NCBI GenBank assembly: GCA_035528375.1
Contig: DATKYS010000076.1
Location: 1-6,425 of the forward strand
From: a bacterium
GTDB taxonomy: Bacteria > RBG-13-66-14
Length of the DNA: 6,425 nt
Direction: 5' to 3'
Numbering within the stretch: the stretch's first letter is position 1; each line of letters begins with the position of its first letter. Below, piece after piece: positions 28 to 6,425 of the stretch. The position numbers and the translations under genes were made by a program. Below the pieces are notes generated by a model, which saw nothing but the letters and a program-made list of their open reading frames with translations, was not told the DNA's origin and made no database searches.

Positions 28-211
28 GTGGGCCGGTGTGAGGGCTGCCGCATGTCCCCTCTCCCCTCTGGGGGGACGCGCGCTTACGGGTTAGGGTGGG
101 GGGCGAAACGGTCCCCCTCTCCCTTTTAGGGAGAGGCGCGCCTACGGGCTAGGGAGGGCGGTGCAGCGGTCCCCTCTCCCTGTGGGAGAGGGTTAGGGTG
201 AGGGCTTCCTT

Positions 212-242
212 TGAAAAAGCGGCGGGGATAGGAATCCCCGCC
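212..242 (-). terminator. Second hairpin plus T-run downstream of the operon (repeat-derived)
   Basis: On the minus strand a perfect 9-bp stem (234-242 with 221-229, arm GGCGGGGAT) with a 4-nt loop is followed by GC and five T residues (plus-strand AAAAA at 214-218). This is the form of an intrinsic terminator. It lies about 165 bp beyond the deacetylase stop, behind the first terminator, so it may be a backup. It is also a copy of a repeat hairpin seen at 2881-2909, so its termination role may be incidental. Confidence 0.5.
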
Positions 243-268
243 CTACGTCACGAACCGCACAGTATCGC

Positions 269-296
269 GTAGGGGCGACCGTCCACGGTCGCCCGC
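269..296. repeat. 28-nt inverted copy of a right-hand repeat hairpin
   Basis: A 10-bp perfect stem (273-282 GGGCGACCGT with 285-294) closes a 2-nt CC loop. The 28 nt at 269-296 are the exact reverse complement of 2769-2796 and differ at one base from the copy at 3014-3041. This shows that the left and right mosaics share units in opposite orientation. Confidence 0.85.
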
Positions 297-344: not shown

Positions 345-386
345 AATAAAACGGGCCGACCTGAACGGCGCGCCGTCGGTCGGCCC
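345..386 (-). terminator. Intrinsic terminator for the minus-strand operon
   Basis: Read on the minus strand, a 9-bp perfect outer stem (386-378 with 361-353; plus-strand arm GGGCCGACC) encloses a nested palindrome ACGGCGCGCCGT. It is followed by G and TTTTATT (plus-strand AATAAAAC at 345-352). It starts 18 bp past the deacetylase stop codon, where a terminator should be. The element is also one copy of an intergenic repeat (inverted near-copy at 2604-2648), so the operon appears to use a repeat as its terminator. Confidence 0.65.
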
Positions 387-404
387 CTACGTCATCGCAG
401 TCCG

Positions 405-2603: not shown

Positions 2604-2648
2604 TGACGTAGGGGCCGACCGACGGCGCGCCGTTCAGGTCGCCCCGTT
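2604..2648 (+). repeat. Nested hairpin repeat with T-run, inverted copy of 350-394
   Basis: These 45 nt match the reverse complement of 350-394 with one mismatch (44 of 45). The outer stem GGGGC/GACC pairs with 2637-2645, with one bulged C, around the palindrome ACGGCGCGCCGT at 2622-2633. Six Ts follow at 2647-2652. On the plus strand it looks like a terminator, yet no plus-strand gene precedes it, so I list it as a repeat. Confidence 0.85.
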
Positions 2649-2698
2649 TTTTATAAGGTAGCCCTCACCTCCATCCCCGTCGGCGCGCCGCTCCCACA

Positions 2699-2799
2699 GG
2701 GAGAGGGGGGCTGCACCGGCCCGAACCGTAGCTTGCGATGATGTCGGGGCGGACCTTTAGGTCCGCCCGCGGGCGACCGTGGACGGTCGCCCCTACGGG
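2699..2799 (+). repeat. 101-nt direct repeat, copy A
   Basis: Matches 2944-3044 at 97 of 101 positions by direct alignment, with no gaps; unit spacing is 245 bp. It carries two adjacent perfect 10-bp hairpins: 2747-2768 (arm GGGCGGACCT, loop TT) and 2771-2792 (arm GGGCGACCGT, loop GG). One of the four differences changes a base in the leader just before the first hairpin; the stems themselves are unchanged. Confidence 0.9.
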
Positions 2800-2880
2800 T
2801 TGAATGTGCGATGGATGACGTAGGGGCGGGTCTCTTGACACGCCCGTTGGGTTATTCAACGCTATGTGCCCAGACGTAGG

Positions 2881-2909
2881 GCGGGGTTTCCTAACCCCGC
2901 CGCTTTTTT
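2881..2909 (+). terminator. Terminator-like repeat hairpin with six Ts
   Basis: A perfect 8-bp stem (GCGGGGTT at 2881-2888 with 2893-2900, loop TCCT) is followed by CGC and six Ts (2904-2909). In form it is an intrinsic terminator on the plus strand. No plus-strand gene lies upstream, so it may only block stray transcription running antisense into the lipoprotein gene, or be a repeat without that role. A related but diverged copy with T-run lies at 3064-3096. Confidence 0.4.
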
Positions 2910-2943
2910 CAATGGTAGCCCTCACCCCTGCCCCTATCCCACG

Positions 2944-3044
2944 GGGAGAGGGGGGCTGCACCCGCCCGAACCGTAGCTTGCGATGACGTAGGGGCGGACC
3001 TTTAGGTCCGCCCGCGGGCGACCGTGGACGGTCGCCCATACGGG
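2944..3044 (+). repeat. 101-nt direct repeat, copy B
   Basis: Second copy of 2699-2799. Its two hairpins are at 2992-3013 and 3016-3037, both with perfect 10-bp stems. Here the first hairpin is preceded by the full GACGTAGGGG leader, suggesting that copy B is closer to the family consensus than copy A. Confidence 0.9.
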
Positions 3045-3139
3045 GAATTGCGCGGTTCTAAATGTAGGGGGGGGAATCCTCTCCCCGCCGTTTTTTATAA
3101 GGTAGCCCTCACCCTCATTCCCTCTCCCCAGAGGGAAGA

Positions 3140-3186
3140 GGGGGTAGCTACCCCCCTCCCTAGCCCTCCCCCCAGAGGGGGGAGGG
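3140..3186. repeat. Two adjacent perfect palindromes before the lipoprotein gene end
   Basis: 3140-3155 is a perfect 16-bp palindrome: five Gs, TAGCTA, five Cs. 3164-3186 is a hairpin with a perfect 10-bp stem (CCCTCCCCCC) and AGA loop. A weaker relative of the second lies at 3222-3241. No T-run follows on the minus strand, so these are not clear terminators for the lipoprotein gene that stops at 3249. Confidence 0.7.
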
Positions 3187-3248: not shown

Positions 3249-5576
3249 CTACGGGTGGACCAGCTCGCCGAAGCTCCAGCTCCGGTCGCCCTCATCCGTC
3301 CACACCGCGCACACCGCCACCACGTACCGCGTCCCGCCCGGCACGCCCCAGTACTCGGCCAAATCCCCCTCGGGAATCACGAGCTCCCCGGTGCGCACCA
3401 GCTCGGGATAGGTCCGCCAGACCCCGGCGTCCGGCAGGCTCTGGGCGTCGAACGCCTTCGCTGGGACGACGGCCACGTAGTAGCCGGCGACGCCGTAGAG
3501 CGGCTCCCAGCTTATCCGCACGGTCGTGCCCTCGTCCACGGCGGAGACCTTGGTGAATGGGAGCTCGGCCAGGTCGAGGTCGTTCGAGCGCCAGGGGACC
3601 GGCTCCCCGACGGGCTCCCCGGTTTCGGCGTCCACCGGCGTGACCAGGAGCCGCGGCGCGGTGTCCGCCGGCAGCTCGACCGAGGCCCGGTCCAGGTAGG
3701 CCAGAATCTTCCCGGCCAGGGGCGGTCCCACGGGGTGGGACGCCTCCCCGAGCTCGAGGGCGTAGTTCCAGCCCCGGCCCTCCACCGTCGGGGCCTCCAC
3801 CCGCGCCTCGACGAGGAGATGGTCGCCGGGCAGCGCCAGCTCCGCCGTGGGCGCGTAGCGGACCAGGGAGCAGGCGACCTGTGTAATCACCGGCCAGGGC
3901 TCCAGCTCCACGACCGGCACCTCCTCGGCCCTCTCGGTCCCACCACGACCGAGGAGCAGCCCCTCGCCTTCCTTCCAGACGATGATTCGGGCGCCTCCCG
4001 GCAGGTCGGGCAGGGTGTAGCGGCCGTAGGGGTCGGTCGTGTCGAAGGCCAGCGGCCTCCCGGGCGGGTCGGCGACCAGGGCGACGGCGGCCCCCTCCAC
4101 CGGCTCGCCCGCGTAGACCGCCTTCCCGGTCAGCAGCGGCTCCTCTTCTCCCTTGGCGAGTGCGAGGGTCGAGAACCCGCTCCAATTCCCAAAAGTGTCC
4201 CGGGCGTGGACGATGAGGGTGTGCGCCTCCCCCGGATCCCAGTCGGCGGTGGGCACCGCCAGGCAGGCGGTGAGCCGGCGGTCGCCGGACAGGCCGAGCC
4301 AGGGGGGGACGGTGAGCGCCGTCCCCGCGCCGTCGTTGCCCGGCGTGTCGAGGAAGGCCTCCACGAGCGCCACCCCGGTGTCGTCCACGGCCGTCACGGT
4401 CACGGCCGCGGTGGAACCCGTGGACGGACCGGTTTTTTCCAGGCCCAGCTCGGGCCCCTGGACGTCGCGGCGGCGCAGTGTCAGCCGGACGGTTTTGAGC
4501 TCCCCTGCGTCGGCGGCGCCCAGGCGGTCGGCGGCCCCGTCCGAGTTCTCGTCGTAGGCGTCCTCGAAGCGCCAACCACCGGCGGCGCTGACCGCGGTCA
4601 CGTAGGGCGAGCTGCGGGCGTCCGTCGGGGTGAGCCCCCGGATCTCGAAGGCCCCGGAGTCGAGAACCGCCCGGGCCAGCGGCAGCTCACCCGCGGGGTC
4701 CTTGGAAACCGACACCGCGAGGTCCGCCGGGAGCGGCGTGCCGTCGGCGCAGAAAACCTCACCCGCCAGGGTATAGCCCTCCTCCGCCGGAGTGACGCCG
4801 AAGCGCCACGTCACCGGCTCCTCGGTGGCGTTGCCCCCCAGGTCCACCACGCCGTCGAGGGTCACCTGGTAACGCTTGGCGGGGTCGAGGGTTGCGGGGA
4901 GGGAGAGGAACACCCGGTCGCCCTCCACGCGGAGTTCCAGGGCCGTCTCGGGACCGAGCGCGACCTGCTCCTCGGGCGGAGGTGTATCGGGGGAAGTCTC
5001 CCCTTCGGTCGGGGTCACCGGCTCGGCGGCGGGCAGGATTTCGGCCAGGGAAGCGGACGCGTCGGGCGCGAGCCGCACCGCCTCGGAGAACCAGGCGTAA
5101 ACGGCCGGCTGGTCCGGCGCCCTCTCTTCCGGGAAGGTGGAGACCGCCCGGGGCGGAGTCTCGTCGGCGGGCGCGTCGGCGATGAACTCCCGCTCCAGCG
5201 GCTCCAGGGGAAGCCCCTCGCCCGAGCGCAGGTTGCGGGTCCGCAGGGTGTAGGTCGCCCCCGGCTCCAGGCCGGCCACGTCCAGAACCACACGGCGCCC
5301 GGTGGCCTGATCCAGCTTGGCCAGGACGACCTCGGCGGCTTCACCGCCCTCGCCGCCCGTGAGGATGAAGTTGCCCGTTTCCTTCAGCGGCGCGGGGTCC
5401 AGGGCGCGGTCGAACTCCAGTTGGATGTGCCGGCTGTCGAGGAGGCGGAAGAAGACCATCCGCGGCGGCATCCCGCCTTCGAGGGCCCGGTCGCCGGGGG
5501 GCGTGGCCTTCCGCCCGCACCCCGCCAGGGCGCCCAGGATGGCGAAAAAGAGGACTATTTTGACCGGTCGCAGCAT
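3249..5576 (-). CDS. Large lipoprotein with SbsA-type Ig-like and carboxypeptidase-regulatory-like modules
   Basis: A 775-residue exported lipoprotein. Residues 1-20 form a lipoprotein signal with lipobox L17-A-G-C20. Residues about 37-133 and 138-262 read as SbsA-type (Big_5) Ig-like domains (DETPPRAVSTFP opening; DLGGNATEEPVTWRFGV ending). The second carries a Pro/Glu/Thr-rich insert at about 181-207. About 268-375 and 482-560 resemble carboxypeptidase-regulatory-like beta domains (second has DTTDPYGRYTLPDLPGG). D342-ENSDGAA-D350 has the spacing of a calcium-binding loop. About 388-475 is another Ig-like module (ARDTFGNWSG). About 675-775 is fibronectin-III-like. No catalytic motif is seen, so a surface, adhesive or structural role is likely. 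The gene stands alone, divergent from the shell genes; any link to them is unproven. The signal peptide fixes the ATG at 5576, which has no Shine-Dalgarno site. Confidence 0.9.
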   Translation of the reverse strand: MLRPVKIVLFFAILGALAGCGRKATPPGDRALEGGMPPRMVFFRLLDSRHIQLEFDRALDPAPLKETGNFILTGGEGGEAAEVVLAKLDQATGRRVVLDVAGLEPGATYTLRTRNLRSGEGLPLEPLEREFIADAPADETPPRAVSTFPEERAPDQPAVYAWFSEAVRLAPDASASLAEILPAAEPVTPTEGETSPDTPPPEEQVALGPETALELRVEGDRVFLSLPATLDPAKRYQVTLDGVVDLGGNATEEPVTWRFGVTPAEEGYTLAGEVFCADGTPLPADLAVSVSKDPAGELPLARAVLDSGAFEIRGLTPTDARSSPYVTAVSAAGGWRFEDAYDENSDGAADRLGAADAGELKTVRLTLRRRDVQGPELGLEKTGPSTGSTAAVTVTAVDDTGVALVEAFLDTPGNDGAGTALTVPPWLGLSGDRRLTACLAVPTADWDPGEAHTLIVHARDTFGNWSGFSTLALAKGEEEPLLTGKAVYAGEPVEGAAVALVADPPGRPLAFDTTDPYGRYTLPDLPGGARIIVWKEGEGLLLGRGGTERAEEVPVVELEPWPVITQVACSLVRYAPTAELALPGDHLLVEARVEAPTVEGRGWNYALELGEASHPVGPPLAGKILAYLDRASVELPADTAPRLLVTPVDAETGEPVGEPVPWRSNDLDLAELPFTKVSAVDEGTTVRISWEPLYGVAGYYVAVVPAKAFDAQSLPDAGVWRTYPELVRTGELVIPEGDLAEYWGVPGGTRYVVAVCAVWTDEGDRSWSFGELVHP

Positions 5577-5696: not shown

Positions 5697-6011
5697 ATGG
5701 ACCTGGTTCTCGTTACGGGCAACGTGGTCTCCACGGTCAAGGACGCGGGACTGTCGGGCTTCAAGCTCCTTTTATGCCGACCTGCCGGGGCCGACGGGAA
5801 GCCGACGGGGGGCGAGCTGATCTGCGTGGACGCCGTGGGCGCCGGGCAGGGGGAGCTGTGCTTCATCGCCCGGGGGTCCTCGGCGCGCCAGACCGAGCCC
5901 ACCCGCAACCGACCCGTGGACGCCGTCGTCTGCGGCATCGTGGACTCCATCGAGCGCGACGGCCGCATCGTCTTCCGCAAGCACGGCGCACCCGACAAGC
6001 CTGAGGCTTGA
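5697..6011 (+). CDS. EutN/CcmL-family microcompartment vertex protein (BMC-P), first copy
   Basis: A complete 104-residue BMC-P protein; family members form pentamers that close the twelve vertices of a bacterial microcompartment shell. Family marks: VTGNVVSTVKDAGLSGFKLLL (6-26), with G8 at the same place as in CcmL; CVDAVGAGQGE (43-53); ARGSSAR (58-64); and PVDAVVCGIVDSIE (73-86). Length is typical. ATG at 5697 is chosen because it gives the family's usual N-terminus; an in-frame GTG at 5691 would add two residues and is better placed for AAGG at 5682-5685. The Shine-Dalgarno site for the ATG is weak. Four cysteines (C27, C43, C55, C79) are many for so small a protein. It is the first gene after the promoter at 5635 and probably heads a shell/enzyme operon. 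Which metabolism is enclosed cannot be told here. Confidence 0.93.
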   Translation: MDLVLVTGNVVSTVKDAGLSGFKLLLCRPAGADGKPTGGELICVDAVGAGQGELCFIARGSSARQTEPTRNRPVDAVVCGIVDSIERDGRIVFRKHGAPDKPEA

Positions 6012-6164: not shown

Positions 6165-6425
6165 ATGCAACGGGGTAAAGTAACGGGCGGCGTCTGGGCG
6201 ACGCGGCATCTGCCCGTCCTCGACGGCGTCCGGCTGGCGCTGGTGCGTCGCCGCGGTCCCGACGGCCGACTCTCCGACCGCGAGGAGGTGGCCGTGGAGG
6301 TGGTGGAGGCCGGCGTCGGCGACGAGGTCCTCCTGGCCGACGGGCGCGAGGCGTCGCTGGCCATGCCCGAGGGGAAGGGTTTCGCCCCGGTGGACCTCGC
6401 CGTGGTCGGCGTCCTCGACGAACAG
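6165..6425 (+). CDS. EutN/CcmL-family vertex protein (BMC-P), second copy, cut by window end
   Basis: The first 87 residues of a second BMC-P protein, open to the last base. It aligns with the first copy: KVTGGVWATRHLPVLDGVRLALV (5-27, again with G8), EAGVGDEVLLADGREASLA (52-70) and PVDLAVVGVLDE (75-86). It is clearly diverged, for example lacking the GSSAR stretch and all four cysteines of the first copy. The ATG at 6165 must be the start, because an in-frame TAA lies directly before it (6162-6164). The ribosome site is weak (GGA five bases upstream, or GGGGG ten bases upstream). Loci with several BMC-P paralogues are common in metabolosomes, so more shell and enzyme genes are expected past 6425. 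I infer it is co-transcribed with the first copy. Confidence 0.88.
   Translation, partial: MQRGKVTGGVWATRHLPVLDGVRLALVRRRGPDGRLSDREEVAVEVVEAGVGDEVLLADGREASLAMPEGKGFAPVDLAVVGVLDEQ

Follow-up and report, generated by a model that had tools for sequence, protein, structure and literature searches.

What kind of element places one short leader in front of hairpins whose stems differ from copy to copy? The question is raised by a 0.7-kb repeat run in a stretch of 6,425 nucleotides (hereafter the window), a complete contig (C76) of a 2.63-Mb draft genome in 144 contigs (G000). The run lies between two minus-strand genes, one encoding a 178-aa protein without a Pfam match (1947–2483) and the other a protein with Ig-like domains, whose 3′ end is at position 3249. 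The run contains eight hairpins, each preceded by GTAG or a decayed version of it, and these fall into stem classes that we call B (2608), D (2743 and 2988), reversed C (2771 and 3016), E (2820), F (2876) and a broken F (3064). The class B element (2608–2645, plus strand) is a long form with a decayed right arm (GGTCGCCCC). The class D element at 2743–2768 (plus strand; stem GGGCGGACC, loop TTTA, tag decayed to GTCG) forms a heterodimer, across a gap of 2 nt, with a class C element at 2771–2796 (minus strand, loop TCCA). The class E element (2820–2845, plus strand; stem GGGCGGGTC, loop TCTT, one mismatch) is also found in a sister species (G001), and the class F element (2876–2901, plus strand; stem GGCGGGGTT, loop TCCT) borders, at the corresponding G001 site, the gene of a tyrosine transposase of the kind associated with repetitive extragenic palindromes (REPs), hereafter RAYT. 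A second D–C heterodimer joins an element at 2988–3013 (plus strand, loop TTTA, intact GTAG), a duplicate of that at 2743–2768, to one at 3016–3041 (minus strand, loop TCCA, tag decayed to GTAT), and the run ends with a decayed class F element with a T tract (3064–3089, plus strand). Each heterodimer is part of a 115-nt block (2685–2799, plus strand) that is duplicated at 2930–3044 with 93% identity, hence the two copies of GGGCGGACC in the window are not independent. A hairpin scan detected a second cluster of the same family at 221–390, namely a class F element at 221–246 (minus strand; stem GGCGGGGAT, loop TCCT), a class C element at 269–294 (plus strand; stem GGGCGACCG, loop TCCA) and a class B long form at 353–390 (minus strand; stem GGGCCGACC, 16-nt loop ending in TTCA). 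This long form also flanks the RAYT gene of G000.

A sequence-only reading of the window had described hairpins with differing stems behind a common leader, and all of those it named are present. It had also proposed a conserved border and intact pairing in each hairpin. A border does exist, although it is GTAG rather than the longer GACGTAGGG, and the tag is decayed at 2743 and 3041. Five hairpins (2743, 2771, 2876, 2988 and 3016) have perfect 9-bp stems and 4-nt loops, with fold z-scores from −3.5 to −5.1 (0 of 200 shuffles); by contrast, 2608–2645 (one pair lost, z = −1.4), 2820–2845 and 3064–3089 (mostly broken, z = −1.5) are partly decayed. Rfam gave zero matches in the window.

We counted the elements beyond the window in two ways, by searches of the full assembly and in a 774-kb sample of G000 that was picked partly where matches had been seen. 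Genome-wide, GTAGGGGC-N14-GCCC occurs 370 times versus 6 in a reversed control, and counts for the three sister species range from 108 to 203; GACGTAGGGG occurs 226 times versus 11 in the reversed control. The leader is thus enriched before hairpins, as anticipated from the window. In the sample, GTAG and TAGG, the same tag in a shifted frame, lead all tetramers by a wide margin in how often a stem of 8 bp or more follows: 5.2% of GTAG and 8.9% of TAGG occurrences, versus 2.0% for the next real tetramer. When GTAGGGGC sites were picked by their 5′ half alone (n = 255), the nine stem positions paired in 69–86% of sites, compared to 21–35% in the reversed control. Since sites picked without regard to pairing still pair, and since the tag is enriched, we take the true border to be GTAG plus a G-rich stem foot. 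A GAC ahead of GTAG is common but not general (83 of ~220), and in several classes it belongs to a longer tgcgatGAC context. The basic unit is a GTAG tag, a 9-bp stem and a 4-nt loop, 26 nt in total (38 nt in the long form), and approximately 236 such elements are present in the 774 kb. Among the papers listed in a literature search for GTAGGGGC, none dealt with repeats, and most were chance matches.

The cores cluster into discrete classes with many identical copies, as the exchangeable-core proposal had implied. Seven main stem classes were distinguished in the sample: A (stem GGGCGGGTG, 52 elements, loop TCCA), B (GGGCCGACC, 61 elements, loops TTCA and TTTA), C (GGGCGACCG, 21 elements, loop TCCA), D (GGGCGGACC, 14 elements, loops TTCA and TTTA), E (GGGCGGGTC, 16 elements), F (GGCGGGGNN, 50 elements, loop TCCT or TTTA) and G (GGCGGCCC, 12 elements, CTCTGC). 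In twenty-three class B elements the loop measures 16 nt, with TTCA or TTTA retained at its end. Identical copies of the most frequent sequences number 45, 20, 19 and 13, which favors copying bursts over one decaying family; class A, with its TCCA loop, is the most uniform and holds the 45 identical copies. Across distinct 26-mers, pairing holds in 179 of the 205 cells at the five central stem positions, whereas 2000 shuffles gave 113 on average and never more than 135. We also observed a long class F element with extra loop nucleotides (GCATAGCTCGCTGCGCTCGGTTCC) at 1590–1650 of L235 (G000:C130) and at G001:C240:3203-3274, with dozens of copies of ~90–98% identity in G001 and a further sister species (G002).

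Genes were predicted with a home-made hexamer coding model, by which 82% of the sample is coding. Of the 236 elements, 229 (97%) lie wholly outside predicted genes and only three wholly inside, so that genes are hardly ever struck. Convergent intergenic regions carry 1.04 elements on average, co-directional ones 0.37 and divergent ones 0.13; a preference of REPs for 3′ gene ends is also on record (PMC3733652). TTTT follows within 10 nt downstream in 26 of 50 class F copies, while none of 21 class C copies has a T tract, and positions 2880–2901 and 3067–3086 of the window score as terminator-like. The 120 nt nearest to stretch ends, which hold 2% of the bases, harbor 30 of the 235 elements, and REP arrays probably fragment this assembly. 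Given this excess at contig ends in a 144-contig draft, RAYTs or arrays may be missing from it. Window positions 171–205, 303–335, 2688–2712, 2939–2957 and 3118–3143 carry another repeat family, in which CCCTCTCCC and GGGAGAGGG enclose a loop and GGGTGAGGG comes next. It matches the TMECO/PIT intrastrand-triplex motif described in E. coli (PMC4666352) and amounts to 166 hairpins in the 774-kb sample. A CCYCTCCC/GGGAGRGG stretch lies within 200 nt of 168 of the 236 REPs.

A dedicated transposase had been predicted from the window, and a RAYT flanked by the same hairpins is indeed present in G000. The sole Y1_Tnp gene of this genome (G000:C91:11737-12210) encodes 157 aa and lies between what we take, from their translations, to be purF-like and purM-like genes. 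Its product scores 109 bits against the NCBIfam model REP_Tyr_transpos (NF047646; cut-off 80) but only 42 bits against the IS200 model, under the cut-off of 55, and its best PDB match is 4er8, "TnpArep". An HLH motif at residues 71–73 (H71, H73) and Tyr112 are conserved. With an HUH motif, one catalytic tyrosine and a match to the REP-type model, the protein qualifies as a RAYT. A class D element lies 16 nt upstream of the gene and an inverted class B element 15 nt downstream, which is the layout of a REPtron. We found one intact RAYT in G000 versus seven stem classes. A cognate RAYT for class A was not found in G000, though G001 has one, nor was a TCNA-type RAYT like that of G001:C310 found in the G000 assembly.

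Comparison with three congeners (G001, G002 and G003) uncovered further RAYTs, each with its own flanking classes. Those of G001:C353 and G002:C41 have class F elements (GGCGGGGAC) on both sides, that of G003:C454 is flanked by GGCGGGGTT/GGCGGGGAT, and that of G001:C310 by classes A and C. The ortholog of the window is G001:C240, where the flanking genes are 89% identical and the E and F elements of window 2814–2902 are conserved. There, an intact RAYT sits directly beside the GGCGGGGTT class F element, whereas the window has no RAYT at this position; conversely, ~260 nt of other REPs in the window are absent from G001:C240. Contig C130 of G000 holds a 24-codon relic of the G001:C240 type of RAYT together with the long form of its REP, at a site where G003:C454 has the full gene. 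At the purF–purM site, a RAYT is present in G000 and in none of the three sisters.

REP clusters, too, differ between the sister species, in that an intergenic region may carry one where its ortholog has none. One gap, for example, measures 187 nt in G000, with three REPs of different classes (two from the scan and one by eye), versus 15 nt in G002. A comparison of the sister genomes for clean empty sites of individual REPs with exact ends uncovered only differences of whole clusters, and we infer the mobility of single REP units. Elsewhere in the window, two adjacent EutN/CcmL genes for microcompartment vertex proteins (5697–6011 and 6165–6425, plus strand) are separated by 168 nt, versus 15 nt in G002, so ~150 nt were gained or lost. 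In G002:C111 (~23476–24923, L207), from purF to a purM-like gene, an AT-rich gene unlike its surroundings and a small gene are found where G000 has its RAYT.

We then compared loops and stems across 42 RAYTs from many phyla, each with at least one flanking REP, taking the nearest correctly oriented REPs; these REPtrons came from relatives of the window and from a search of named genomes, an approach that favors relatives of the G000 RAYT. On a quick RAYT tree without bootstrap, loop categories, as defined in this analysis, changed 20 times, compared to a minimum of 18 and to at least 24 with shuffled labels. Among RAYT pairs at 40–60% identity, the loop was shared in 31–61% and the stem in at most 1%. 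In the clade of the G000 RAYT (SH-aLRT 91), most of whose members are from Chloroflexi, all 11 members carry TTNA loops, combined with 13 different stems. Stem-class labels had almost no signal on the same tree, because nearly every stem is unique. The loop, not the stem, tracks the RAYT clade.

Published biochemistry of the Marinomonas TnpAREP Mb agrees with this pattern (PMC8266576). Its wild-type loop is TTTA, in which the first two T residues and the A are essential and the third base can vary, and a T-to-C change at the second loop position abolishes cutting; inner stem pairs are exchangeable, while mismatches are harmful (PMC8266576). From the TTNA loops of the clade and this agreement we propose that recognition by the enzyme depends on GTAG and the loop, with pairing the sole demand on the stem. 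Two further RAYT observations stand apart. In G008:C120 (L195, 718–1931), two adjoining RAYT-type genes belong to distant branches of the tree and have different flanking REP loops. A single 5.0-Mb contig (G060:C1, kinship "same domain") contains GTAGGGGC-N14-GCCC 221 times, and several interchangeable stem parts surround a common CCCTTGTGG; it has ten Y1_Tnp matches, and REP flanks were detected at none of the six RAYT loci inspected.

REPs of the GTAG type are palindromes of 20–40 nt with GTAG or GTGG at the 5′ hairpin foot. The elements carry the GTAG tag, are short high-copy palindromes, lie outside genes and are linked to a RAYT in a REPtron. We consider it highly likely that the window hairpins are GTAG-tagged REP elements, that is, non-autonomous single-strand mobile repeats that RAYTs mobilize now or mobilized formerly, and the proposal of a modular mobile intergenic element with exchangeable self-complementary cores and a REP-type TnpA is thereby supported. 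Their mover in G000 is very probably a small transposase that reads the common tag and the loop. The REPs stand singly and in mixed (BIME- or REPIN-like) clusters, and GTAG would act as the guide at the hairpin foot. RAYTs, which are HUH enzymes with one tyrosine and related to IS200/IS605, would bind REP DNA as a folded single strand, recognize GTAG and the loop, and then cleave and rejoin the DNA next to the REP; for cleavage, strand transfer and reading alike, we extrapolate from the published biochemistry of relatives. Stems would diversify by paired changes and copying bursts, giving one leader before several stems, since a stem must pair but its sequence would be little read. By loop type, the C91 RAYT would act on the TTNA elements, namely classes B and D and much of E; the TCNA classes A and C would depend on a RAYT resembling the one at G001:C310, and class F on the C130/C240 type, which in G000 is reduced to a relic.

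Known systems provide close parallels. In Di Nocera 2013 (PMC3733652) and Nunvar 2013 (PMC3686654), GTAG REPs likewise consist of a 5′ GTAG, an immediately adjoining perfect stem of 8–9 bp and a short loop; they are intergenic, prefer 3′ gene ends and are present in hundreds of copies and in several classes per genome; REPtrons have a RAYT flanked by inverted REPs; and heterodimers are preferred in many families, while orthologous RAYTs have differing stems and a common loop. Multiple classes per genome, orthologous RAYTs with shared loops, and heterodimers have been described in Pseudomonas, Stenotrophomonas and others (PMC6006769, PMC3686654 and PMC3733652). Unlike the families in the two 2013 papers, G000 has seven stem classes with one intact RAYT and belongs to an uncultured lineage, and the stems GGGCGGGTG, GGGCCGACC, GGGCGACCG and others do not occur in the available parts of those papers. 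REPtron Mb of Marinomonas sp. MWYL1, with a group 3 TnpAREP, shares the TTNA loop, which the REPs of the G000 RAYT and its whole clade carry; however, in Mb a 2-nt spacer separates GTAG from a stem of 5 bp (PMC8266576), whereas the stems of G000 measure 9 bp and adjoin GTAG directly. With their perfect short stems, the G000 elements resemble the REPs of group 3 TnpAREPs in shape. The BIMEs of E. coli comprise Y, Z1 and Z2 REPs, which are long and bulged, with one TnpAREP. G000 is similar in having several REP variants per RAYT and adjacent inverted REPs of different variants, but differs in its short perfect stems, its larger number of classes and its more numerous pair combinations.

Could the hairpins instead be kept mainly as functional RNA or DNA, for instance as terminators, stabilizers of mRNA 3′ ends, or gyrase or IHF-like binding sites? 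The preference for convergent and co-directional gene ends would fit, as would the TTTT after about half of the class F copies and the two terminator-like stretches in the window, and such roles of REPs are reported elsewhere (PMC8266576 and PMC3733652). Class C, however, lacks the T tract altogether, the position and content of clusters vary between orthologous intergenic regions of the sisters, and host function alone leaves the bursts of identical copies and the RAYT link unexplained. We therefore regard this explanation as possible but rather unlikely, and host function can be a side effect or a co-option. A set of protein-binding sites, which had also been suggested from the window, may be a secondary role; the turnover between sister species and the RAYT link favor mobility.

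A single ancestral repeat, decayed by point changes so that the stem classes are noise, would account for the GTAG, G-rich stem base and similar loops common to all copies, and for decayed copies such as 3064–3089 and 2608–2645; we find it hardly credible, given discrete classes with up to 45 identical copies, middle-stem pairing above the maximum of all shuffles, and different classes flanking different RAYT paralogs. This agrees with the original view that one repeat had not simply decayed. Defective insertion sequences, either miniature IS200/IS605 elements or MITEs of another transposase, would involve the same enzyme superfamily and an end hairpin with a 5′ guide. Against this, the G000 protein passes the RAYT model and fails the IS200 model, its gene is single-copy, and the copies are single 26-nt hairpins with no left and right end pair seen, which makes such an origin very unlikely.

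Returning to the REP elements themselves, we examined how neighbors are arranged in the G000 sample. In 17 inverted pairs the GTAG ends point outward and no more than 10 nt separate the two elements; the gap is 2 nt in nearly all, and the 2-nt-gap pairs share GCCCGCGGGC. Inverted pairs in the opposite arrangement within 40 nt number 20, commonly 20–30 nt apart. None of 57 inverted pairs within 150 nt had the same stem, compared to 11.2 expected, and none of 24 in the sisters, compared to 4.1 expected. REPINs in the strict Pseudomonas sense, in which two identical REPs form one long hairpin, are thus not what these pairs are. Same-stem direct neighbors were likewise absent within 40 nt (0 of 21, 4.2 expected) but occurred at 41–150 nt (7 versus 6.1 expected). 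A heterodimer preference was reported in 2013 and left unexplained, SbcCD-mediated loss of long hairpins being mentioned as one possible cause (PMC3733652). The orientation dependence beyond 40 nt supports the removal of long palindromes, with the serious caveat that same-stem inverted pairs may be lost at assembly breaks, as 30 of 235 elements lie near stretch ends.

Taken together, these results describe a known kind of element in an uncharacterized lineage, to which the loop-versus-stem and heterodimer results add modestly. They place a dense REP/RAYT system in an uncultured lineage. The 42 REPtrons from several phyla give comparative support for GTAG and the loop carrying specificity, with the stem largely free; so far, stem-free specificity has been biochemically tested on few enzymes only. 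For the heterodimer preference left unexplained in 2013 (PMC3733652), they supply an orientation-resolved count, in which neighbors with identical stems are avoided only in the inverted orientation, as expected from the removal of long palindromes. Tentatively, and with the odds rather against it, stem diversity itself might be selected: RAYTs would read GTAG and the loop, cells would purge identical inverted pairs as long palindromes, and the loop would be a RAYT-clade code that crosses phyla. If so, only stem-diverged elements could adjoin as dimers, and the stem classes would be maintained by negative selection against homodimers.
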